DNA from: Bryum argenteum
Taxonomy: Eukaryota; Streptophyta; Bryopsida; Bryales; Bryaceae
Reading direction: 5' to 3'
DNA length: 64,000 bases
Assembly (NCBI GenBank): GCA_037043015.1
Contig: CM073324.1
Coordinates: forward strand, 6,655,013 to 6,719,012
In this document: in pieces, positions 3,086 through 42,819 of the stretch
Layout: the number at the start of each line of letters is the position of its first letter
Numbering within the stretch: position 1 is the stretch's first letter
Position numbers and translations under genes: made by a program
Notes under the pieces: model-generated
What the model was told of the DNA's origin: nothing
Seen by the model: the letters and a program-made list of their open reading frames with translations, nothing else
The model's database searches: none

Positions 3086-3101
3086 TTCTTTTTTCTTTTA
3101 A

Positions 3102-3528
3102 CCCCTAAACGCCCAAGGGGGGGTAAAGCTCCTAACAATTGGTAATAATGTTGATTTTTTCAAAACTGCGTAAAAACCAATAAAAGATGAAAATGGAAAA
3201 TCCAACCGTAGGATCTTCTTTGGAGCATGGCAATTAGTATGACCTCTAAGTTGCATGCCATTTGGAGGTATGGATTTCAAGATCCATGCAAAAAAGGGGT
3301 GAAGATCACACCACCAAAATTTTCATGAAAAATCTCTTTCGCCCACTCTCACAAATTGAGGATCAAGGTTTTTGCTATTTATCCAAGGAGGGAGTAGAGT
3401 AAACCCACCGAGGAGTTGAGCAAAAAAAACGGCGGATGAAAAATCGATGGGATGAAAGTGGGGTTGTGCACCAAAGACGGAGCCTTACATCCAAAATGTC
3501 GAAAAACGACACCGTGGGCACTTAAGGG
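3102..3528. mobile_element. TTAA-flanked terminal-inverted-repeat element, 427 bp
   Basis: The left end reads CCCCTAAACGCCCAAGG and is preceded by TTAA (3098-3101). The right end, reverse-complemented, reads CCCTTAAGTGCCCACGG and is followed by TTAA (3529-3532). An interrupted palindrome, TGTCG-AAAAA-CGACA, lies about 20 bp inside the right end (3498-3512). There is no coding capacity. It is one of three paired-end copies in the window, with 18724..20260 and 24080..24339. TTAA duplication with CCC/GGG ends is characteristic of piggyBac-type elements; that superfamily assignment is inference. Confidence 0.65.
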
Positions 3529-3588
3529 TTAAATACCCTCTCATGGTCGTGCCATGTTGTTTTAAAGTAAAAGCTACACATGAGTATT

Positions 3589-3598: not shown

Positions 3599-3822
3599 CT
3601 CATTATTACCAGTTCTTATAAACTACTTGGATTTGTGGGTTGTGTAGTTACTGAGAGCATGTTATCTGCTTGCAATAAATAAAGTAAAAGACTTATTATG
3701 TACATTTCTAATATGAAATCTTTGTCTTGGTAATCAAAATATTACATGAAAAAAAGAAAAAAGAGTATAGGTTTACGACCAACGTATATAAAGAACCAAT
3801 TTTACCCCTAATTTTATACACT

Positions 3823-5262
3823 ATGACCACGAATAATTTTCCGATGGATTATGATACTTCAAACCATATACCCGAACCTTGGGATGAACATACTTGCAAA
3901 AGATGTATATCATGGGATGATATACTTCAATTTTGGCCAACATCAAGACATCCAACCATGAAAAAAAGATCGGAGGCAAACTTGAACTTTTGTACCCATG
4001 ATGCATATAAGGAGGAATTGAGTCGTATGTACAGAGCTCTTCATAAAGACATTGATCCTACATCAGAGAAAGCGTATATAATACCATATTGGTTATGTGC
4101 AATGGTTTACGCGAAAGTATTTTTGAACAAAAAAATCGACTGGAAGCTTACGAGCAAACACCACAACTATGACAAAATTGTCCAAAATTACACCGATGAT
4201 TCTCTCCATGAAGTGCTTCCCATGCACGTTGAGGATGAAATGCTTCCCGTGCGTGGTAAGGATGAAGTGATTCCGGCGCGTGTTAGGGATGAAATGCTTC
4301 CTGTGCGTGGTAAGGATGAAGTGATTCCGGCGCGTGTTAGGGATGAAATGCTTCCCGTGCGTGGTAAGGATGAAGTGATTCCGGCGCGTGTTAGGGATGA
4401 AGTGATTCCGGCGCGTGTTAGGGATGAAGTGATTCCGGCACGTGTTAGGGATGAAGTGATTCCGGCGCGTGTTAGGGATGAAGTGATTCCGGCGCATGTT
4501 AGGGATAAAATGCTTCCCTCGAGTATTATGGATGAAACGCTTCCTGCACAGGTTATGGATGAAATGCTTCTTGCACGTCTTAAGGATGAAATGCTTTGTG
4601 CGCGTGTTAAGGATGAAATCTTTCCGGAGTGTGTTCCATCTAGAATGCTTCTCGTATATGCTACGGATGAAAATCCTTTGCAAGAAGAATGTCGAGCCAG
4701 GATCGAGTTCGGCAAGAGAAAAATGTCCATTCAACCTACCCTTGATGATGATGATAAACCGAGAGGACTTGCATGGATGCAACACTCGGACCTAAGACCA
4801 AACACCTACAATGACAAGGGAGAACCCCCAAATTCCGACGATAAGTCGAATATTGGACTTTCATCCCAATCCTTGGTTGATGGTAGCAATTCATTTGCAG
4901 ATATCCAACATGCATCTACAATGGAAGAACTTGAAGCTTTAGATCTTCAAATTGAAGCTCTTAAAGAAAGCTTGAGAGAATTTCAAAAGAAAAGAAATGC
5001 TTCTATATTTGAGAGGAACGAATATATCCAACATCATGAGGAGGACATGAAGAGATATGAAGCTGAATTATTAAAATATAGTAGAAGCATTACATATCTA
5101 GACAATCAAATTCCATTAACAAAAAAGCATGTAGAAAACCTCAAAGATTTTTGTGACAAAACAATTTTAGGTATTAATCGGTTAAGTACGGATTTTTTAA
5201 GTACATCAAATGAAAGTAGATATAGGGGTGTAGAAATTCGTGAAGTATTTGAATGCATTTAA
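3823..5262 (+). CDS. Unrecognised protein with nonapeptide repeat array and C-terminal coiled coil
   Basis: The frame is open for 479 codons from ATG at 3823. The same frame is open further upstream without an ATG, so 3823 is the first possible AUG start. Residues 1-128 have several Trp, Tyr and His and a CKRCISWDDILQFW motif. Residues 129-281 are 17 tandem 9-residue units of consensus D-E-x-[IL]-P-x-R-x-[RK]. Residues about 360-465 form a predicted coiled coil rich in Glu, Lys and Leu. The architecture faintly recalls plant mobile-domain proteins associated with transposable elements, but I see no decisive motif. It is intronless and sits next to a SINE and a TTAA element, so it may be transposon-derived. 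The same repeat is also open on the opposite strand, a side effect of the 27-bp period. Whether it is expressed is unknown. Confidence 0.5.
   Translation: MTTNNFPMDYDTSNHIPEPWDEHTCKRCISWDDILQFWPTSRHPTMKKRSEANLNFCTHDAYKEELSRMYRALHKDIDPTSEKAYIIPYWLCAMVYAKVFLNKKIDWKLTSKHHNYDKIVQNYTDDSLHEVLPMHVEDEMLPVRGKDEVIPARVRDEMLPVRGKDEVIPARVRDEMLPVRGKDEVIPARVRDEVIPARVRDEVIPARVRDEVIPARVRDEVIPAHVRDKMLPSSIMDETLPAQVMDEMLLARLKDEMLCARVKDEIFPECVPSRMLLVYATDENPLQEECRARIEFGKRKMSIQPTLDDDDKPRGLAWMQHSDLRPNTYNDKGEPPNSDDKSNIGLSSQSLVDGSNSFADIQHASTMEELEALDLQIEALKESLREFQKKRNASIFERNEYIQHHEEDMKRYEAELLKYSRSITYLDNQIPLTKKHVENLKDFCDKTILGINRLSTDFLSTSNESRYRGVEIREVFECI
4207..4665 (+). repeat. 27-bp coding minisatellite, 17 units
   Basis: The period of 27 bp keeps the reading frame. 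Units 2-7 alternate between DEMLPVRGK and DEVIPARVR types, units 7-10 are nearly pure DEVIPARVR, and the units after 4504 are strongly diverged. The pattern indicates recent expansion at the 5' side of an older array. Confidence 0.95.
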
Positions 5263-7959
5263 TTAGCTCTTTATTTTATGCAATTAGATTGGTCATGTAT
5301 AATGTGATTCTAAATAAAGTACCCAAATTATACCTCAACCAATATCTCCATCTAGAATGTGCCAATATCTCAAAATTAAAAATTCTTTGGCCCTCTTAAT
5401 GTAAAGTCACACTTAGGAGAATCTCCAAGTGTCAAGAGAATGCAGAAATGCCACGAGGTGGCACTCAAACGATTGTGCAACTTAAGATTAACAATCAGAA
5501 CCGATCTAGCGTATTGATTTTGTTAAATTGAGACTTTTGAAAATCTCATTTTAAATGCAAGGAGGTTTTATGATGAGTTTTTTGGGTCTTGGAGAACACT
5601 TTGAAAAAAGTTATGTGGGACTTTAAATGTAATCAAGTTATTGCTCCACAAGACTCTTAGACCGAGAATGTTTCTTTATCATTAAATAATTTGTCCAATG
5701 GTTTGTCCTAAGTGCTCAACAAAATTCTACTTCTTTAATGCTCTTTGGCGGTCCTTGAACACCTAGGAAGCTATCTTTCTGCCTCAAGTAAGACTTATAC
5801 AACTTTGACATCTCTACTTCATAGTTTCTGTTCAACATTCAAAGTTGAACTTCTCATTTACATTCGATGCAATCATTTGCTTGCGATTTCATCACATACT
5901 CTGGTCGATTAAGTTCAACATATATGACATCAGGTGGTAAAAAACATACTAACACGATATTCATTATATTGGGAAAATTCCATGATTTTGAGAAAATGCA
6001 GTTTAGCTCGAGACGAGCTAAACTGTACCAGCAAATAGGGAGATTGAAAATCTCCCAAAATAACGAATATCGAGTTTACTACTCAATCGTCCATGTATCA
6101 ATTAGAAGAGAGGGCGGACACACTAATCGACTATGGCAAATGCATCATGAACACTACCTCCAAGGTCCCTATCTCGCCAATGCTAGGGCCATGTACAACA
6201 TCTCAAACACTGTTTCCTACTTCCAAAGATTCTACTATGCCAACCCTTTGTATAACCTCCCGAGTGTCGCTCCCTACTTATAGACCATGAGATTCTACCA
6301 CGACAACCCCATGTTGGCACTCCAAGCGCCGTCTTCAGGGATTGTAATGCCTATGATAGATGACATACTGTCAGATTCCGACATAATGAAAATTAGCTCT
6401 TGTAATGTTGTGGAAAGTATTATTGCATATTTCACAATGAAATGTATGGAATTAGCCAAAGTCTCTCATTTTCATGTAATTCTTATACAACAATATTTCA
6501 AGTCTTGAAACTCTAAAAATAAAGTGTCAGAGATGAATTTGAAAGTAAGTTATGTAGATATCAATTTGACATTCTTGTAATAGACTAACTGGAGGTCATA
6601 TGGAAAGAACACTCTTTTTAATACAAGGGTGTTTTGAGATGAAGGTGAACAACATTATGGTTGATAATTCAAGGCTTAAAATCACACATGCTTTAGTCTA
6701 AATAAGAGCCTTACATTCGTAAAACTACCTTAGAAATTGCAAAGGATAAAGAGTTCTAAACCATACCCCTTGCACTAAAAAGAATGCCATAACTTCCTCA
6801 CGTAAGATTCTTATCACAATCAAACAAGATCCAAATTGAATTTCAACCCAAAAAAAGAAGTCGAAATGTATGAAAGAGATATAGCTCCTCCATAACCATG
6901 TATTTTTTCAAAGAGGATCATCATCTCCTTATCATCATCTCTCCAATAAAGCAGGGTATCAATGCACAGACAGAGTCATCAATCAGCTGAAACAAAACCG
7001 GGTATCAATGTCGGCATCCTCACCTGGTCCGTAGTCAACCGACTCAAAACCGGGCATCAATTCCGAATGCAAATACAGGGTATTAGCGGGTATCTACCGC
7101 GGCATCGTACAGTGAATGTGCCCGTTCATCCAGCGAGCAGGCACCCAGGCCGCGAACATGCAGGAACGGCAACAACTGAACTGAGGGCCCTGGAAGGGAG
7201 GGACTATTCTGATCACTCATGAGGTGATGATCACTCGTGAGGAATCCGGGATTTCCGGGATCTATTCATCAGATTAGTGATCCCTTGTGCCGGGCAGGCC
7301 AGGCCATGGCGAGTTCATTGGCGACACTGCGATCCCACATGGCCAGGCTATGACGGAGCGGGCCGCCCTCTGACGCCTTCAAGCTACCGCCACCCACTGA
7401 CACACACCGCCTTGGAATCTCGTTCCTGCCCAGTTGGCCCTCCCTAACCAGCCATAGCCGTTATCCCACACCCACCCCTACCATCCCCTCCTCTCCCCCT
7501 TCGGAATTCAATCCGTTGATGACGGGCTTGCTTGCGCTTGTTCGATTCATGCATCAACCGTACTTACCCCTCATTCTCTTATGAAAAAAATTTCGTTTCG
7601 TATTCATGGGTTGCATTCGGGTTAGGTTAGACTGGACCAGGCTGAGGATGGTGAGATTATTGCCCGGTGGTGGTGGTTGTGTCTGCATTTGGTGTTAGGT
7701 TAGAATGACAAGGCTGCATCCGCCTTATTCGCAATGAAGTTGCTGGCGATGATATTGCTGCTTCAATCACAATCAGGCTATGGAACAGTGTTGATGCGGA
7801 TGGACAAGCATCTTAGTCGGTCTGACTGGTGAGTAGCGTGCACTTTTAATTCGTTTTCTTGCGTTTGCGATTGATATTCAAAGTCAAGTAAAAGTGAGTC
7901 GAATTAGGGTTACCGTCTCAGTCTAGCAGTTCAAACCGTCGCTTTAGAACTCAAGTGTA
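5263..7959. other. Intergenic region without supported gene
   Basis: Two overlapping frames at 5867-6508 look like a decayed coding segment but have no recognisable motif. A stretch near 6600-6660 resembles dispersed repeat family B. From about 7000 the sequence becomes GC-richer and forms the distal upstream region of the GT61 gene. Confidence 0.4.
5999..6025. repeat. Perfect 12-bp inverted repeat with 3-nt loop
   Basis: CAGTTTAGCTCG is followed by AGA and then by its exact reverse complement. The structure would form a hairpin; no function is evident. Confidence 0.85.
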
Positions 7960-11266: not shown

Positions 11267-14200
11267 GTCGAGAGTTTGTAACTCTGTTGGGGACCATGTG
11301 AGTATCTTGTCTGCAGCGAATGTTGGAGCGCTGTGGATGAATGATCGATGAGTGCTGCGCTTTTTCAGCTTCACTGTCTTAAGGTGTGTGGTTTCATTCG
11401 ATCTAAAAACCTCTCGTTGTCCTTTATTGAGCACTTCACCCTTGTAGTCCAGTGGCCTAAAACGACCTCCGAACGATCCTTTCTGAAATCAATGTGCAGA
11501 TTTTCGAAAGAACTTGATTTTCACAATCTTAACTGTAGGATCTTGTTGAGTGTACTTACCAAGTTTCATCAATTTTGGATGGTGTGACTTTGTGGTGTAT
11601 AAAAACTACATGCCTAGTCCAGGAATTGGCTTTGCTTTCTGGTGGGATCATCAATTAATTGTACAACAAGATGTCCTGTAGTTGGCTTTTGGGTCCAGGA
11701 TCAGTAATATTGAATGTCTGGCCTATGTAGTGGTGCATTGCAGGACTCAGATGTGAATAAAGGCCAGGTTTGGAAATTAGGTGATCTCAATGTGCGCATT
11801 CAACGAGGTAAGCTTCGCCCTTTTACGGCCTTTTATGCCCTTTTATGCAAGGCTTGATTCATCATTGTAAATTGTTACTGAAATTTTCTCTTCTGTATTG
11901 CTCTGTGGCAGGATTTAGAGGTTAGCCCAAGAATGGCTGCTGTATACGAACACGATGAACTCAAATTTTTCGACATTCAGAATTAGGAGTGTTCTTGTTG
12001 TACCATTGCTCTCATTCACAAATTTGTTTAGAGAATCTGACTCTGTGGGGTCTCAAGGTGATGTATTGATCAATTTTTTGATGTTGAAGAAGCATTTTCC
12101 ACATGAGAGTTGTTCTGCTGTTTTGAAATCCAAGTTTTTGCCTCTAGATTAAACTAGTATGATGATGGAGGCTCTTGCTTTTAATTGAACATCGATTCAG
12201 ATTTCGGGATTTGGATTTGCGAGAAGGTATTGTGGTGCTCTCGTAATAATTGTTCCAGAGTTCCACAATCAGATCACTTTTCTTAAAATTGAAAGATTTG
12301 TTAGATATGTTCATAATTACTACTCTTATGTAAATATGTTTTCGCTTCATCTTGTTTACATAAGAGTACTTCTTCACCGAGAGGCACTTGTCGTTGTGAT
12401 TTGCACATATCATGATAATGAGAATATAGAGATGCGTTTGATAGTCACCCCTACTTCTGCATTGTGTGGTAGGGGTGGACATGGTGGGAGTAAGGGCAAA
12501 GGGTGACAGAGAGAGGGGTTGAGATATTGAGGTTTAGTTTCTCATTTTTTATTTTTCAGAAAATATCATAATTTTGTTTACTATGATATGAGTTAGTTTC
12601 CATACAAGTGGTTGCTAGTGAATATCATGATTTCTGGTGAAATATCATGATATTCTGGAGGTTGTCGGACACACTCCACACTCCTTATGTAAGCATCATT
12701 TAGGAGATTCAATAATAGGATCTCAAAATTAACGTTATTTTCTACTCCCACATCAAATTTGAACCGTTGATTTTTCTTCATTTGTGAAATTATAGTGGTT
12801 AAATCTGATTGAGATTATCTCTTGTGAGACCTCCAAAACCCGTTTTGAGTTTCAACGAAAGTTAGGGGTTAATATCTAGTACCCAACCCATTTCGAACCC
12901 CTAAAAATTTGTTGAAAATTGGGTAAGTTCAAGTGGTAACAAGGTAAGGGATGTTTGCTATCGAAGGTTGTTAATTCTTGAAGGCTCAAGGGGGTAGCAA
13001 TCTTCATGAATTTTTTGTAGTCACTTAATAAATTTTCAATTTTTTTCAAAAAGGATTCGTAAAATTCACTACACACATTGTGAGATTCCATGTATGTGAT
13101 GAAACTTGGGTTTCAGAGAAGATATTTGAGCAATGGACTTCAAGCAAGCACTACAATCACATACTTTGCTCGAATTTGCACCTTTTTTTCAAAATTCATA
13201 AGTGAAATCGGTTACGTACCAAACATTAATGTGGCATGCAATCACATGAGGTACGCAAACAATGTTTAGCTTGGACTTAAATAAAATATGAATATAAGGA
13301 GTTGGGCAATGTCATCCAATCGGACTCGACTTTTAGAATGAGATTGGTTTAATGGATATGTAAATTACATATGAAGCTGAACTTGCAAAAATTTAGAAAC
13401 AAAATTTGTTGTTGTTTTTTTCTTTTTATAAGTCTACCAAGAACAGTTTTAAACAAGATTCTATGGTTGAATTTCTTGAAACAAATTCCAGTAAAACCTT
13501 ATTCATGGATTTCAGATATGGCCATCTAGGAGGTAATTGTAGAGCTTCTCCTTTAGGGGTTAATCAATAGATGATAGTCTATAAAAAGAACTTGTCTACA
13601 AGAATTGATCATAATTAAGTTGTAATTTTTACTAATGGATTCAAGTCAATAGGCATGTCTCAATTCATTAATGTGTATTTGTTTACTTTATTGCAATGAG
13701 ACTCTTAAAATGCTGCAACTAAATCAACATCAACTCCTAAAGCCGAATCAACCATTTTATGGTCGATCATGAATTTTGAGAAGTTGGACGTGGCTATAAA
13801 AAGACTTTTGTTGGTTTATTTTTTACTTTCTAGAAGTTTGGTGAGTTGCAAACTTCAGCCAATATACAAGACCTCGTTTGGATTCATAGATTGTTCAAAA
13901 TAAGCTTTTAAATACAAACAGGGCAAAGTTTCCTTAGTGTTAGAAAACTTACTATTTTGTGAAACTAATGTGTTCCTTGCAGGTTATAGGTGGTGTCTCC
14001 TAGGAAATTTAACTGTATTGATCTGATGTAGGGATTAAGGTCTTCATATTTTATTTGTAGCAATTCTTTTTAAAGGTTAATTAATGCATATTTTAAAACA
14101 CATTTATCTCTTTCTTTAAACCTCTTGGGTCTTTAGGGGTTAAGGTCAACATGCCTTCAACTGTTCATTATTATGAAAGATTTGGAGAACAGAGCATTGT

Positions 14201-14590: not shown

Positions 14591-14799
14591 GATTTATTTT
14601 TTTTCTTCTTCATTCCTCATTCAACCGAATCGTTTCTCATTCAACCACACTTGGATTCAATTTGGTTTGTTGCATCCGGTTCCAATTTAAATCTTGTTTT
14701 TGTGATAAAAACCTTAATTCTGTCCAAGATATGGGGAAGTCATGGCATTGATTTTTGTGTAAGGGGCCTAGGTTTTGACATTAATTCTTTTGTAAATTT

Positions 14800-15130
14800 T
14801 TTAGCAGTTTTTACCGTTGCAACTTACAAGGTCATTATATGGGCCAAAAAAAATTTCTCATGGTTTGTTTTTGTTGAGGGGTGTTATTAAGATGAAGGTA
14901 AACATCTTGGTAGTTGGCGATTATTTCATTGTAATAACTATTGGTAGCATTTTCACTTCAAAGTGATAATGTTGAGGTTTTATGTTATTTTTAGAGTATT
15001 AATTTGTTACGATCTCACAATCTATGAGGCCTGAAGACTCAAAATATGACCCACGTGTCTATGACAAGATTGTATGGTTGACATTTGGATAACTTACCTT
15101 TGTTTCTATTTATATCACTTAATTTCGGAA
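14800..15130 (+). repeat. Dispersed repeat family B, copy 1
   Basis: It shares an ordered series of landmarks with 21170..21480 and, inverted, with 19270..19640. These are 'gatgaaggtaaac', 'ttggtag', 'cacttcaaagtg', 'gatctcacaatctatgag' and 'gtatggttgac'. No termini could be fixed. Confidence 0.65.
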
Positions 15131-15169
15131 TGTGTTTATTTTGCTACAAATGAGTTGAACCATTCAGGT

Positions 15170-18719: not shown

Positions 18720-18723
18720 TTGA

Positions 18724-20260
18724 CCCCTAAAAATCCAAGCGTTTCCTCGACCTCAAAAACCAAAAACTGCCATTTTTCACCTTCGTTGAGAGATGGGGGA
18801 ATGGAGAATTTTTTTTTTTGTGGTTTTAGACTTTGAACCGTAAGATCTTGTACGTAACCTGTATACAAAGGACTGGTCAAAAATTCAACCGTTGAATGTT
18901 TGTCATTTGTGAGATTGTAACAATCAAAGTTTGTCTAACACTTTCTTTTGCCGCTGCTTGAGAGGCATTGTCTAAATGGTGCCAAGGGCAACTTGATGAT
19001 TGTTACTCCAAACATTTTTCCGTCATTTTTTTCATGTAGGTAATCAAGTTGGTTACGCTTATGCAAAATTTTAGAGACCAATTCCACTTTTTGAACTTAA
19101 TGTAAATTATTTTATGAAAGAAGGTCTGGAAACAACAATATAGTAAAACAAGCACCACATATGATATATTTAGGTTTGAGAAAAGTTTGGACGGTGAGTA
19201 GGTGCATTTATGAGTATGTGAATTTTGGAAAAACTCATTTTCAAAAAACTCATCTTCAAAAACTCAATTTCAAAAAAAGTGATATAGATGAAAATAAAGA
19301 TAAGCTATTCAAATCTCAACCATACAAACTTGTAATAGACTTGTAGTAGATCATGTGGACCAAAACTTGACTCATGGGATCTCATAGATTGCGAGATCAT
19401 AACATATTAGTGCGCAAAACAGGCTACAAAATACCATCATTTCCACTTTGAAGTGAAAATACTACCAACATGAAATTTGCAATCAAAAAATCAGCAACTA
19501 GAAAGTTGTTCATCTTCATCTCAAAGACACTCTTGTACCAAAAATATGTATAAAAAAAAAAAATCTTGGCTCAAATAGTAGCCTTGTAGTCGTGAAAAAT
19601 GCCAAAAATTTTACAAAGGAAAAATAGTCCAAAACTAGACCCCTCACACTCAAATCCATGCCTTTTCTTCAATATATCCTCGATTGGGTCAAGGTTTCTA
19701 TCACTAAAAATAGACTATAATTGGAATCCATCCCAAAAAATAAAGTCAAAATCTAACAGTGGATGAATGAGATCTAGCTCTTCAAAAATCATTCATTTTT
19801 TCACTTTTTTCATCGTGGAAACATCATTGCAAAGCCAATACCTAAGTTATCTAGATCAAAAAACTTCCAACTACAAAGTTGTTGGGATGCATCTAAATAT
19901 CAAACTTGTGGAAAAAAAATCATGAAAAACTATTTTAGATTTCACATAATTGGCTTGCAATGGTAAAACATGCCAAATGTTTGAAAACCCAAAAACAAAA
20001 GCTGCCTTCACTAAAATCCATGCCATTTATTCATACTTTATTTTATGAGTCTGCAATTTTTACCACATAAACTAGATTTGATTTGTGACCTGACACAAGT
20101 GATTTCGTCAAAACCGGAGTTTGGAGGAAGAACTTATGGCTCTTCAAAGTTTCTGCCCTTCATCCAAAATGTCGTTTTTCGACACTAGGGACGTTTAGGG
20201 GTTAAAATGAGTTGTCCGAAATCTCAAAAAACGGAATCGGTTTTCTTGGATTTCTAGGGG
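18724..20260. mobile_element. TTAA-flanked inverted-repeat element, ~1.54 kb, no transposase
   Basis: The left end CCCCTAAAAATCCAAG is preceded by TTGA. The right end, reverse-complemented, is CCCCTAGAAATCCAAG and is followed by TTAA. The paralogous locus at 43.13 kb appears to be an empty site. A family signature TGTCG-TTTTT-CGACA followed by 'gtttaggggttaa' sits at 20170-20204, which suggests a second, nested end of the same family. The interior includes an inverted copy of repeat family B and no long open frame. Confidence 0.6.
19270..19640 (-). repeat. Dispersed repeat family B, copy 2 (inverted)
   Basis: The reverse complement carries the same ordered landmarks as 14800..15130, including 'cacttcaaagtgga', 'gatctcgcaatctatgag' and 'gtatggttgag'. 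It lies inside the TTAA element at 18724..20260. Confidence 0.65.
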
Positions 20261-20577
20261 TTAATTTATATGGGTCTTATGAGGGTATAAATTACATAGA
20301 CATATTCCTTAATCAGTTGTACTTTCACAGAGCTTGGATTCAAAACTTAAGGTCATCAAGAAAAATGGGTGGCAGGAAGCCCAAATGATGGTTTTACTGT
20401 AACCAATCACATAATTTTGTTTCGAAGATGGTGGTGACCAAATTGCCAGAGAACACCAATCATTCAGAAAATTTTAATTAGCTAACTTCTGAGTAACATG
20501 CCAAGTGGCTAAGGACAAATAACAAATGCTTTCATTTACTTAAACTAACTTACGCTTAATTTCATTTCAGTAAGAGA

Positions 20578-21085: not shown

Positions 21086-21169
21086 CTTGATTCTAGATGT
21101 TTTGAAAAAAAGGCGTAGGTTTGAGTGCAAGTTAGAGGTGTAGTTTTGGACAGCTTTTCCTTTGTGAAT

Positions 21170-21480
21170 ATTCTTTGGTAGTTTTCACCATTGCAAGGCT
21201 ACTATAGGAGCCAATGAATTTTTTTCAACACAAATGTATTATTTAGATGAAGGGGAACAACGTTCTAGTTGGTGATTTTTTATTGCAACTAGTTTGTTGG
21301 TAGAAATTCTACTCTTAAGTGAAAATTCAAAGTTTGTTTTTCGTACTAATATGTTCGATCTCCAAATCTATGAGGGGTCATTACTTAAAATTTGGTCCAC
21401 ATGATTTGCAATAAGTCTACTATAAGTTTGTATGGTTGAGATATGAATAAGTTACCTTCAATTTCATCTAAATTTTTTTT
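21170..21480 (+). repeat. Dispersed repeat family B, copy 3
   Basis: It is collinear with 14800..15130: 'ttcaccattgcaaggctact', 'gatgaaggggaacaac', 'gatctccaaatctatgag' and 'gtatggttgagatatgaat'. Confidence 0.65.
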
Positions 21481-21697
21481 TCTTCCTTAAAATGTGTTTC
21501 TTGGTCAATAATAGGCAAGGACGTTTAGGGGTGAAGAAGAGGAAAATTTTGACTTGTCTACATGTGCGTAACAAAAGGTGGGTGTAGGAGGAATTGCAAA
21601 ACCTCTTACATTTGGGTGTGTGAAGGATGTTTAAGGTATTACAAGTATTTTTTAAAAATAAATAGACATTATTATTTGCTAAAACAAAGTCTTCGAA

Positions 21698-23654: not shown

Positions 23655-24079
23655 TAAATTCTCAAATATAACCTTCTTCTACTTCAAGACCAATAAAACT
23701 CGATCCAAAAGATGTTTAGAAAGTTCAAGGTAGGATGTTGGATTTAAATTGACATTCTACTCGCTCTGAAAATTTAAACCGATAATTCCTCTTCATTTTT
23801 GAGATTGAAACAATATATGTTGTCTGGATTTTTTTCTTACAGAAACCCTCAAAAAATATTTTGGATTTTAAGGATTTTTTCCGCCACGTGTTGAAAATCA
23901 ACACAAAGGATAACAAGCAACATCTTTGAAGGGCCATAGCTTCTTCATTTAGAGTCCATTTTGGATGAAATTATGTGGGTTGCGTCGTGAATCAAGTCTA
24001 GTTTGTGCAAAAGTAAAAATTGCACACTCATATAATGTGCCATGTCTAATAGGGCTTCATTCAAAGTCTTTATTATTAA

Positions 24080-24339
24080 CCCCAAACTTTTCTTAAAACC
24101 CGAAACGGGTTTTGGAGGTTCCCGCAGGAGAAAAACTCAACCAACTTTGACCATTATAATCTCACAAATGACGAAGAATGAACGGTTCAAATTTGGTATG
24201 TGAGAAAAAGGTCAAGTGAACTTTGAGATCTTACGGTTGAATCTCTAAAATAATGCTTGGATTGAGATGTTTTGAGCTTGATCTGAAGGGAGGTCAAATT
24301 TTGTGACTTAGACCATTTTGCAACAAGGAAATTTAGGGG
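24080..24339. mobile_element. TTAA-flanked inverted-repeat element, 260 bp
   Basis: The left end CCCCAAACTTTTCTT is preceded by TTAA (24076-24079). The reverse-complemented right end CCCCTAAATTTCCTT is followed by TTAA (24340-24343). The interior contains 'ctcacaaatgacgaagaatg' and 'gatcttacggttgaa', motifs that recur inverted at 12700-12870 and 18830-18930. Confidence 0.7.
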
Positions 24340-25110
24340 TTAAATTGTATAATTTGAAAGTAAGATATTTGGCTACTGACAAGTGATAATGAATACGCAT
24401 GAATTAGAAGGCAGATGAGTAGATCACCCCCCACACTTGCAAATTGTAATCCCCAGTCTGGCCCATATTTTTTGGATGCAGGCACTCTCCAGAAATTTAT
24501 AGGATTCTTGGGTTTCACAATCAATCATAAGCTCATGATTAAGGAGAGGCAACTATAATTAGGGATGTTTTACATGGGGAGTCAAGGTTGACAAATCTCC
24601 GAGCCAATTTATTCACATTTTGAGCCCATGGGCCACTTGGAGAATACGTTGAAGAAGTAATAAAGTGTTGCCAATACCCCATGCGTAGAGCCCTTGGGGC
24701 TGATTTGTAATAGGAAAAACAAGGCCATGGGGCCAATTCGTATTATTAACTACATTCTATGTTTCTGAGTTTGTTCATATTAAAATATTTTAGTGAAATG
24801 ATGATTCTGTATTGAAATTAAGCGACGGTCTCTAGGCCATGAATTGGCCTTCATTCTTGTATCTTCCAACTTTTGGAACACGGGCCGCGTTTAAACTTGT
24901 TTCCCACTTATTATTATACATTTTCAGAAAATTGGCCTTTAACTCCCCATGTAAAGCCCCTCAGGCTAAATTCGAGAGTTGAACCAATTACAAGAGAGGA
25001 TTTGGCCATGAATTGGCCCCATCAATGGCTTGGCCCCTCGTGCAAAGCAGCCCTTAACCGACCATCAAAGAATTTTAAAATGTGTTTTGGAGTTTAGGGG
25101 TGAGGGTTAT

Positions 25111-36419: not shown

Positions 36420-36625
36420 AATTCTTCACCCCCAAAGGCCCAAGAAAGCCAAAATGGCTTTTTGCTCTTTTGGGCATCTTAGTTGAAAGGTCAGCTTTTG
36501 GCCTTTAGGGCTATAATTTCTCGAGGGTGTGGGGAAATACACAAGGTTTATGTGGTAAAAATTGTAAGATTACATCCTAAAGAAAACGTGTTTTATAGAT
36601 TTTTATAGTTTCAAGGCCCAACCAA
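36420..36625 (+). repeat. Dispersed repeat family F, copy 1
   Basis: It is collinear with 39238..39445, sharing 'gggcatctta', 'gggc.ataattt', 'gaaatacac.aaggt.tatg' and 'caag.cccaa'. The left border resembles TTAA-family ends (CCCCCAAAGG here, TTAACCCTTAATG at 39244). Confidence 0.55.
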
Positions 36626-37639
36626 AAAGGGAGTGCGGGCTGCTTACCTGGCCAATATGTAGGTAATGGGCCCATTCAAGAGAGAAGGTATCATGCCCCA
36701 TAATATTTCAATTTACATATATGTTTGGTTCCTTTTAAAATTCATTAAAATTTGGAATTTTATAGCTTTTCAAAAAAATCATCTCACAAGTCCAATTTCC
36801 ACAAAGGCAAAGTCTCACCATTCATTTTTGAAAAAAAAACATTTTTGATAGTATTGTTGCATTACAACCCCCCTTTGTATTTTAGACCCATTATAAGAAG
36901 GAAAAAAAATTGCGTGAAGGCTCTAAAATGAATGGGTGATACTACGATTTTGCGTGCACGTAGCCAAATTAGCTATCTATGGAAAAAATTATGTGCAAAA
37001 TGTTTGGGCTTACAAACACCAAGTCTTCCTTTGCACCAAACAGACTATGTCTTTTAGGCAAGGTCCAAAAAAACTTTTGCCTCACTTTGATTATTTCGAT
37101 CTCACTAATTGTGCGGATCCAACGGTTGAAATTTGACATAGTAATCATGAGTGTAGTTAGATTCAAGATCTTACAATTGAAAATAATTAAAAATAGTAAA
37201 AAAAATCAACCATACCTCAATCTCCACAAGGGGGTCAAAAATAGTCATTTTTAGTTCTTGAGGTTCTAAAAGGGCTTGGGCCATTGGTTTTTAATAATAT
37301 CCAATTATTTTTTATTCTTGTCTCTCTTCATCTCAAGTGTAACTTCTTGCTCATATCCATTGGAGACATGCTAAGATTCTAAAATCATCTATTGTATATT
37401 CCTCTAACTTATAAATGTCTCAATATTTCATATATTTCAAAGTGGCAAAGTCATTGGAGAGTGGCAAAGTCTTTGGAGGGTGGCAAAGGGAAAATATACA
37501 AAGTATGAAGCTCGTTGAACCAATTTCATTCATAAAATATGAATTTATCTTGATTTAGTTATGAATATTGAAGTGGAGACCATAGGTGTACCTAAAACTC
37601 ATATGTATAAATATTTACCATAAGCACATCTATATTACA

Positions 37640-39237: not shown

Positions 39238-39445
39238 TTTAGATTTTAACCCTTAATGCTCCTTTGAAGCCACTACAACTTTTTGCAGTATTGGGCATCT
39301 TATTGAGGGATCCAGTTTTAATAATTTGGGCCATAATTTGGTGTGAGTGTAGAAATACATGCAAGGTGTATGTAGTAAAATTTGCAAAGTCAAATTCCAA
39401 TTTATAAATCTCCTCGAGCAATTCTAAGGTTGCAAGCCCAAATAA
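39238..39445 (+). repeat. Dispersed repeat family F, copy 2
   Basis: It is collinear with 36420..36625. It starts at TTAACCCTTAATG, similar to the TTAA-element terminus; the opposite end was not identified. Confidence 0.55.
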
Positions 39446-40005
39446 GGCAGTTTAAATCTATTATTTTCTGGAGATTTTTGGAGGATATGTTCATGACCTT
39501 GCTATAAACTCGATATGTATTTTTTAATATTTTTTGTATCAACTTATTTGAAGTTTATGAATGTTTTATAGCTTTAGGCAATCCAAGTTGAACGTGCTCA
39601 ACAGCACGGGTCCCACTAGTTGAATTTCAAAGCTTTAGTGTACCTCTTCTTTGAATGTCACTCCTGAGCGGTTCGATGCTATGTAGTATTTTGAGCCTCC
39701 TACCTTACATCAAACTTTCTTAGAATCAGCAGCCACCAAGTACTATCCTATTGAGGTTCATGATTGTATTTCTCTCAATTGATTGAAGACATTAATTAAA
39801 ATCTCCTCAGACAAATAATTAATACTTGCACTTCATTTTTTTAATACTTTCTTTCTTCTTGAGTTTTAAATTTGGAACTTTAAAAAAAGGAAAAAAAAAG
39901 GAAAAAAGAGTGTTGGTAGGACCCTACGTTCTCATAGGAATATTTCTTTTTGGTAAATGCCATCTCTTCATCACTATTTGAAGGATTCACGAGAAACAAA
40001 CAAAC

Positions 40006-42007: not shown

Positions 42008-42819
42008 TTCGGGCCTTTCTATGGCAGGCGGCAAAAGGTGGCACCCTATTAAAAAGATAGTTCATTGGAAAAGGAAAATGGCCTTTGTCTAACTAAATAT
42101 AGCCAATCTAGTCTTGTCCTTCTTAGCATGTCTGTTGGAGATGTCCTTAACTCCTAAATTTTCTTGTTGTTTGTTGGGAGCTTTGAAACATCCAAACTAC
42201 GAATTTCTACATTTATGTATTCGGGAGGATGTGAATAAAATTATTTTCTTTTTTTGAGCTTCCAACAATAAGTTCTTGTACCTAAAACTATCTTTGATTA
42301 CTTTCCCAAAAATTGACCATTTGAGAGGTTCTAACATCCAAAGTTTGTCGCCCAAGTTTTTTTGAGCATTGTGGAGATTGTTTTTGAAACTTTTGGAGGT
42401 TGTCAGTTTAAAATTGGTAAACTTTTTAACTTGGTCACTTTAGGATTTCAGTATTGACTTAGTAGTAAACATATTTCAGAAAAATATTTTTACTTCTTAC
42501 ATTTTTAAGCTGCCCCGTCTCCGCTTGTAACGCAAGGATTGTCTCATGAGACTAAGAAAATTAGAATTGTACTTTGTAAATTCTACTATATACACTTTAC
42601 TCTATAATGAGTACCCAACAAAAAATTCAGGATACAATATTACTTTTAACACATTCATCTAGCCTACCTCAAATTGAAAATAACCACTTTAGGCTTCAAG
42701 GAAGTTTAGGGGTTAAGGCATCAAGTGTAATTGAGATGCATTTCTACTTGACTTTATCCATAATTGTTTTTACTAATCTTGTATCCAAAGCGAATCTCAA
42801 ACTTTCAAAACATTATTGG

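Follow-up and report, generated by a model that had tools for sequence, protein, structure and literature searches.

The window analysed here, a stretch of 64 kb (C4:6655013-6719012), belongs to a genome of 258.8 Mb in 25 contigs. It carries genes for a BRF1-like factor, a SNF2 helicase and an ethylene receptor; the last has ETR1_N and GAF, HisKA and receiver exons. At 3727-5262 an open frame of 511 aa, for which Pfam gives no match, contains VRDEVIPA-type units repeated in tandem and in frame. Profile searches of the genome returned 28 NAC matches, often incomplete in the way expected of split exons, and 74 AP2 matches, 70 above the cut-off; the only named control genome in these searches is a bacterium, so the controls are largely uninformative on eukaryotes. 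This gene content fits a land plant, which is probably seedless. The TTAA-bordered units of the window and their derivatives are given below, where m427, m972, m927 and m260 denote MITE families and lineage F (or F) is a larger transposase-encoding element described further on.

3098..3101, no strand: left TTAA of m427
3102..3528, plus strand: m427 MITE, 427 bp
3529..3532, no strand: right TTAA of m427
12691..12872, minus strand: m260-like fragment, 78% identical to m260 (12691-12868), with TTAA at 12869
14635..15151, minus strand: diverged m972-like fragment, 68%
18720..18723, no strand: left border tetranucleotide TTGA (TTAA decayed), edge of the m927 copy
18724..19270, plus strand: left part of an m927 MITE, beginning CCCCTAAAAATCCAAG; m927 1-541, 91%; collinear with the 3' end of lineage F
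19257..20201, plus strand: nested m972 MITE, ending GGACGTTTAGGGG; m972 30-972, 96%; initial 29 bp absent
20202..20205, no strand: TTAA between m972 and m927 (insertion site), a single TTAA in intact m927 copies
20202..20260, plus strand: right part of the m927 MITE, ending TTTCTAGGGG; m927 869-927, 86%
20261..20264, no strand: right TTAA border of the m927 copy
21096..21531, minus strand: diverged m972-like copy, 72%, with the end CCCCTAAACGTCC; border decayed
24076..24343 (element 24080..24339), plus strand: m260 element with flanking TTAA at both ends; m260 63-163 resembles lineage F, 73%
36429..37290, plus strand: old lineage-F derivative, internally deleted; F 1-139 and F 5304-5690, each 76%; borders TTCA/TTAA
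39246..39498, plus strand: TTAACCCTTAA end at 39246, with F/m927-like sequence alongside (39281-39498)
42368..42716, plus strand: m927-like 3' part, 71%, with GGGG abutting TTAA at 42713

The three paired-end units reported in an earlier note on this DNA (3102..3528, 18724..20260 and 24080..24339) are all present, with TTAA at five of their six borders and TTGA to the left of 18724. They do not form the one common family that had been claimed for them; they fall into three separate MITE families. Nor is 18724..20260 the single element it was taken for, as its junction shows when set against intact m927 copies: in the latter (n = 6) one TTAA is followed by AATGAG, and in the window the right end of m972 is followed by TTAA and then AATGAG. 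The unit thus reads as an m927 copy with a 5'-truncated m972 inserted at the internal TTAA of m927. On its left side m927 542-868 and m972 1-29 are absent. Most likely, an m927 MITE already in place received an m972 MITE at its TTAA, and a subsequent deletion took about 327 bp of m927 together with the first 29 bp of m972. At the site matching 18720..18723, six of the seven other fetched m927 loci (L071, L072 and L074-L077) carry TTAA and L073 carries CTAG.

Single ends listed in the earlier note could be placed in part: the one at 20194 is the end of m972, that at 12863 is the end of the m260-like copy, and those at 42709 and 39244 adjoin m927/F-like sequence; no family was assigned to the ends at 13554, 14133 and 43486. 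The lineage-F-type derivative at 36429..37290 was absent from that list. The window holds 10 occurrences of the motif pair TTAACCCC/GGGGTTAA, versus a mean of 1.72 and a maximum of 6 in 50 first-order Markov sequences. Enrichment of TTAACCC/GGGTTAA is less clear (14 versus a mean of 7.92 and a maximum of 14 in 50 such sequences). A tblastn search with 11 proteins found no transposase relic in the 64-kb window.

Throughout the genome the same ends are abundant, TTAACCCCTAAACG having 1597 + 1663 exact matches (3260) versus 2 + 1 for the reversed control. Families were compared copy against copy. For m427, the 40 best-scored matches of 481 candidates, window copy included, all span at least positions 1-424, and the other 39 are 97-99% identical. 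For m972 (972 bp), the best 40 of 9663 candidates include 39 further matches with 94-96% identity along some 950 bp, and the fetched copies are bounded by TTAA followed by CCCCTAAACGTCC on one side and by GGACGTTTAGGGG followed by TTAA on the other. For m927 (927 bp), at least 40 matches were scored (best 40 of 2872 candidates); six of the eight loci fetched are intact (L071, L072, L074-L077; 922-934 bp, TTAA at both ends), and the remaining two are the window copy (L070) and a copy with CTAG at both ends (L073). Thus m427, m972 and m927 are short, multicopy elements without a transposase, with paired ends and a duplicated target, as MITEs are. A fourth family, m260, has its 78% relative at 12691-12868 of the window. 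At L005:1504-2916 just one TTAA separates adjoining copies of m427 and m972, a back-to-back insertion. A short element bounded by TTAA, CCCTTAAACGTC and GACGTTTAAGGG, TTAA adjoins a lineage-D transposase at L081:848-1216 and is possibly a further MITE.

In the fetched loci, borders were read for 46 separate insertions, which belong to m427, m972, m927 or the 5.7-kb lineage F. TTAA stands on both sides in 39, ATAA on both sides in one and CTAG on both sides in one, and the borders are unequal in five, all of them m972. When loci fetched with a TTAA-containing pattern are set aside, the figures are TTAA/TTAA in 28 of 31, ATAA/ATAA in one, CTAG/CTAG in one and unequal borders in one. The count covers copies whose two ends lie no more than 4 bp short of those of the family and leaves out L031, L032, L044, the truncated m972 and the split m927 of the window, as well as the 7 of 30 pattern-fetched loci that have no m972 match (L019, L037, L040, L041, L045, L046 and L047). 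Elements reached from both ends were entered once, and L025 and L030 were entered as two. Because the odd tetranucleotides ATAA and CTAG match on both sides, the four bases derive from the target and are duplicated.

Filled and empty sites, a comparison that the earlier note had proposed, were aligned in 12 pairs from spanning matches, of which 8 (four insertions) are clear. The related empty sites carry one TTAA for the m427 copy L051, whose unoccupied site is found in L022 (a perfect match across 76 bp around the TTAA) and in L036, for L055, whose empty site lies within its own flank, and for L028, whose empty site is in L047. For the lineage-F copy on C8, ATAA in the filled site corresponds to ATAT in each of four related empty sites. 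In the other four pairs, the sites aligned with L058 and L038 lack a junction TTAA, the L075 alignment leaves an ambiguity of one base, and L005 realigns only with itself. At C2:1912897-1912944 two opposed lineage-F left ends overlap by exactly four bases, as if sharing one TTAA.

TTAA duplication together with CCC/GGG termini is the hallmark of the piggyBac superfamily, which is best known from animals. We searched the genome with the PF13843 (DDE_Tnp_1_7) profile. A transposase of this type flanked by the same ends, which the earlier note had suggested looking for, proved abundant: there are at least 116 matches (116 scored of 775 candidates), all 116 above the cut-off, with a best value of 7.4e-82; by hand count of these 116 scored, 93 have no internal stop and 23 have one. 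In four lineages (A, B, E and F) the transposase lies inside bounded elements of 5.2-6.4 kb with TTAA borders and CCC(C/T)T(A/C)AA-type ends. The A, B and E elements, each bounded from one copy via paired ends, measure 5191 bp (ends CCCTTAAACGCCC), 6391 bp (ends CCCCTAAAGATCCA) and 5278 bp (ends CCCCTCAAGGCCCATG). Lineages C and D were read on their 3' side only, so their elements are unbounded. Lineage F has four copies of about 5.7 kb that are 99.7-99.8% identical in differing flanks; they have the terminal repeat CCCCTAAAGGCCCA and are bounded by TTAA on C7, C4 and C2 and by ATAA on C8. TTAA plus the lineage-F left end, as a 26-base pattern, occurs 61 times in the genome.

The lineage-F protein matches piggyBat (9c0f) at 2.2e-28 and the transposase chain 6x67, which we take to be T. 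ni piggyBac, at 9.4e-25, with three Asp positions aligned. The catalytic residues D537, D628 and D745, as well as three cysteines (C845, C848 and C866), are invariant in an alignment of six proteins of the genome. The Cys-rich C-terminal region gives weak Pfam matches of B-box/HIT type, below the cut-off. The lineage-F frame reaches 916 aa only in the C2 copy; in three of the four copies it has 831 aa and ends before the Cys-rich tail. Local blastp identity between most lineages is about 28-42%, L012, L014 (B) and F being closer at 54-70%. The longest stop-free frames at the loci read (six) have 831-1002 aa, some reaching the edge of the fetched stretch, and others have 394-538 aa. In L010, L015, L016 and L017 several hundred residues stand ahead of the DDE domain; the N-terminal regions of L010, L016 and L017 have no Pfam match. 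GEVTREFVHAVTG (L015, L017) and WGTVVHEFYDP (L010) are similar N-terminal motifs that may be part of a small folded module.

A direct link between MITEs and coding elements was found for m927. Its positions 1-409 correspond to F 5695-5287 (72.7%, E 3e-56), starting at the exact F terminus, 509-555 match F 5174-5130 and 728-816 match F 201-114. These matches are collinear in order and orientation, like those of an internal-deletion derivative. Its opposite terminus (892-927) corresponds to lineage B 36-1 (83%). In m260, positions 63-163 correspond to F 5488-5588. Among the four dissected transposase elements, m927 and m260 are the only families with a related coding element; the interiors of m427 and m972 match none of the elements A, B, E and F, so for these two families we infer the transposase partner from the ends only. 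Their termini are similar to those of the transposase elements.

Four of the six features that define the piggyBac superfamily are present in this genome: a DDE_Tnp_1_7 domain in an element with such ends, a DDD triad, TTAA duplication and CCC/GGG terminal inverted repeats. The other two are a Cys-rich C-terminal domain, of which the conserved cysteines and weak Pfam matches may be a sign, and seamless excision that restores TTAA. Judged by sequence, the TTAA elements are almost certainly MITEs of the piggyBac superfamily, presumably mobilised by transposase from larger elements of the genome. The transposase of the larger piggyBac elements would recognise CCC(C/T)TAAA-type inverted ends, excise the element and insert it at TTAA (rarely ATAA or CTAG), whereby four bases would be duplicated. 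The MITEs would thus move in trans by the piggyBac proteins of the genome; excision would be seamless, and movement may still be going on. The larger elements, some of them very recently copied, are probably what mobilises the MITEs. The earlier note had proposed a non-autonomous family moved by a piggyBac-like or unknown transposase, and the piggyBac part of that proposal is supported by the observed ends, by the four-base duplication and single-copy empty sites, by the bordered elements coding for DDE_Tnp_1_7 and by the collinearity of m927 with lineage F.

Three other origins were weighed. TTAA target duplication is also a trait of Sola3 and Kolobok, and a transposase of that kind might have moved m427 and m972, with only m927 and m260 belonging to piggyBac; in favour of such a division, the interiors of m427 and m972 show no resemblance to lineages A, B, E and F. 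However, their ends CCCCTAAACGTCC, CCCCTAAACGCCC and CCCTTAAGTGCCC resemble the lineage-A element ends CCCTTAAACGCCC, their borders and empty sites behave like those of the other families, and the dissection reached only four lineages among at least 116 PF13843 matches, so we consider this division improbable.

Since TTA and TAA are contained within TTAA, the MITEs with CCCCTAAA ends could in principle be Tourist-like PIF/Harbinger elements whose 3-bp duplication mimics TTAA, and Tourist MITEs are established in angiosperms (PMC10004981, available excerpt). This origin was rejected and is very unlikely indeed: the duplication comprises four bases and not 3-bp TTA/TAA, 41 of 46 insertions having the whole tetranucleotide on each side, the ATAA/ATAA and CTAG/CTAG pairs among them, and the element with which m927 is collinear codes for a piggyBac transposase. 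Still less credible, with hardly any chance of being right, is a motif that is an internal piece of larger LTR or Helitron elements with accidental TTAA pairing. The m972 copies L025 and L030 share sequence beside both ends and may sit in a larger repeat, but copies generally stop at their borders in mostly unrelated flanks, and empty sites were found; the flank comparison led us to reject this origin.

The elements of this genome and piggyBac (6x67) or piggyBat (9c0f) have in common DDE_Tnp_1_7, three catalytic Asp, TTAA duplication and CCC...GGG termini. They differ in size from the original piggyBac (5.2-6.4 kb versus about 2.5 kb), and the longest frames have 831-1002 aa (others 394-538 aa) versus 578-594 aa in the PDB chains. 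Further differences from piggyBac and piggyBat are the land-plant host and an extended N-terminal part that Pfam does not recognise. Genome engineering in animals relies heavily on piggyBac. A native plant piggyBac with very recent copies would be a source of plant-adapted transposases and a natural experiment in plant control of the superfamily, and its hosts would be a group in which inheritance could be weighed against horizontal acquisition.

The available excerpts of two papers on Daphnia describe mPok1 and mPok2 as piggyBac-derived MITEs of Pokey, which, unlike the elements here, targets rDNA plus other sites (PMC4912750, PMC3849761). Like the MITEs of this genome, they are short, non-autonomous and related to a larger element of the piggyBac superfamily; here, in contrast, several families are nested in one another in one plant genome. 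That piggyBac would be unexpected in land plants, as the earlier note held, is only partly correct: in accounts available in part, which give no detail, PiggyBac is already named among plant superfamilies (PMC10794571) and in an angiosperm MITE list (PMC10004981), and a table for C-fern gives 1230 PiggyBac copies covering 122,417 bp (PMC6890710). The superfamily label is common to those annotations and to our data, but the excerpts hold only labels or counts, whereas the transposase, ends, duplication and empty sites are demonstrated here. In the literature searched, with partial coverage, no dissected land-plant piggyBac element was found. The superfamily is known and the host group poorly documented; the novelty lies in how large and clear-cut the land-plant system is. 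We lean towards the view that a seedless land plant harbours a large, multi-lineage, still mobile native piggyBac system, with more than 100 transposase matches, thousands of MITE ends, near-identical recent copies, long N-terminal extensions and a target choice loosened to include ATAA and CTAG.

The largest contig seen, C1 (44.1 Mb), is conspicuously poor in piggyBac ends, transposase matches and the gene families examined. About 17% would be expected from its length; it holds 98 of 3260 TTAACCCCTAAACG ends (hand count), 5 of 116 scored PF13843 matches, 1 of 61 lineage-F ends, 0 of 28 NAC matches and 0 of 74 AP2 matches. C1 could be a sex chromosome.
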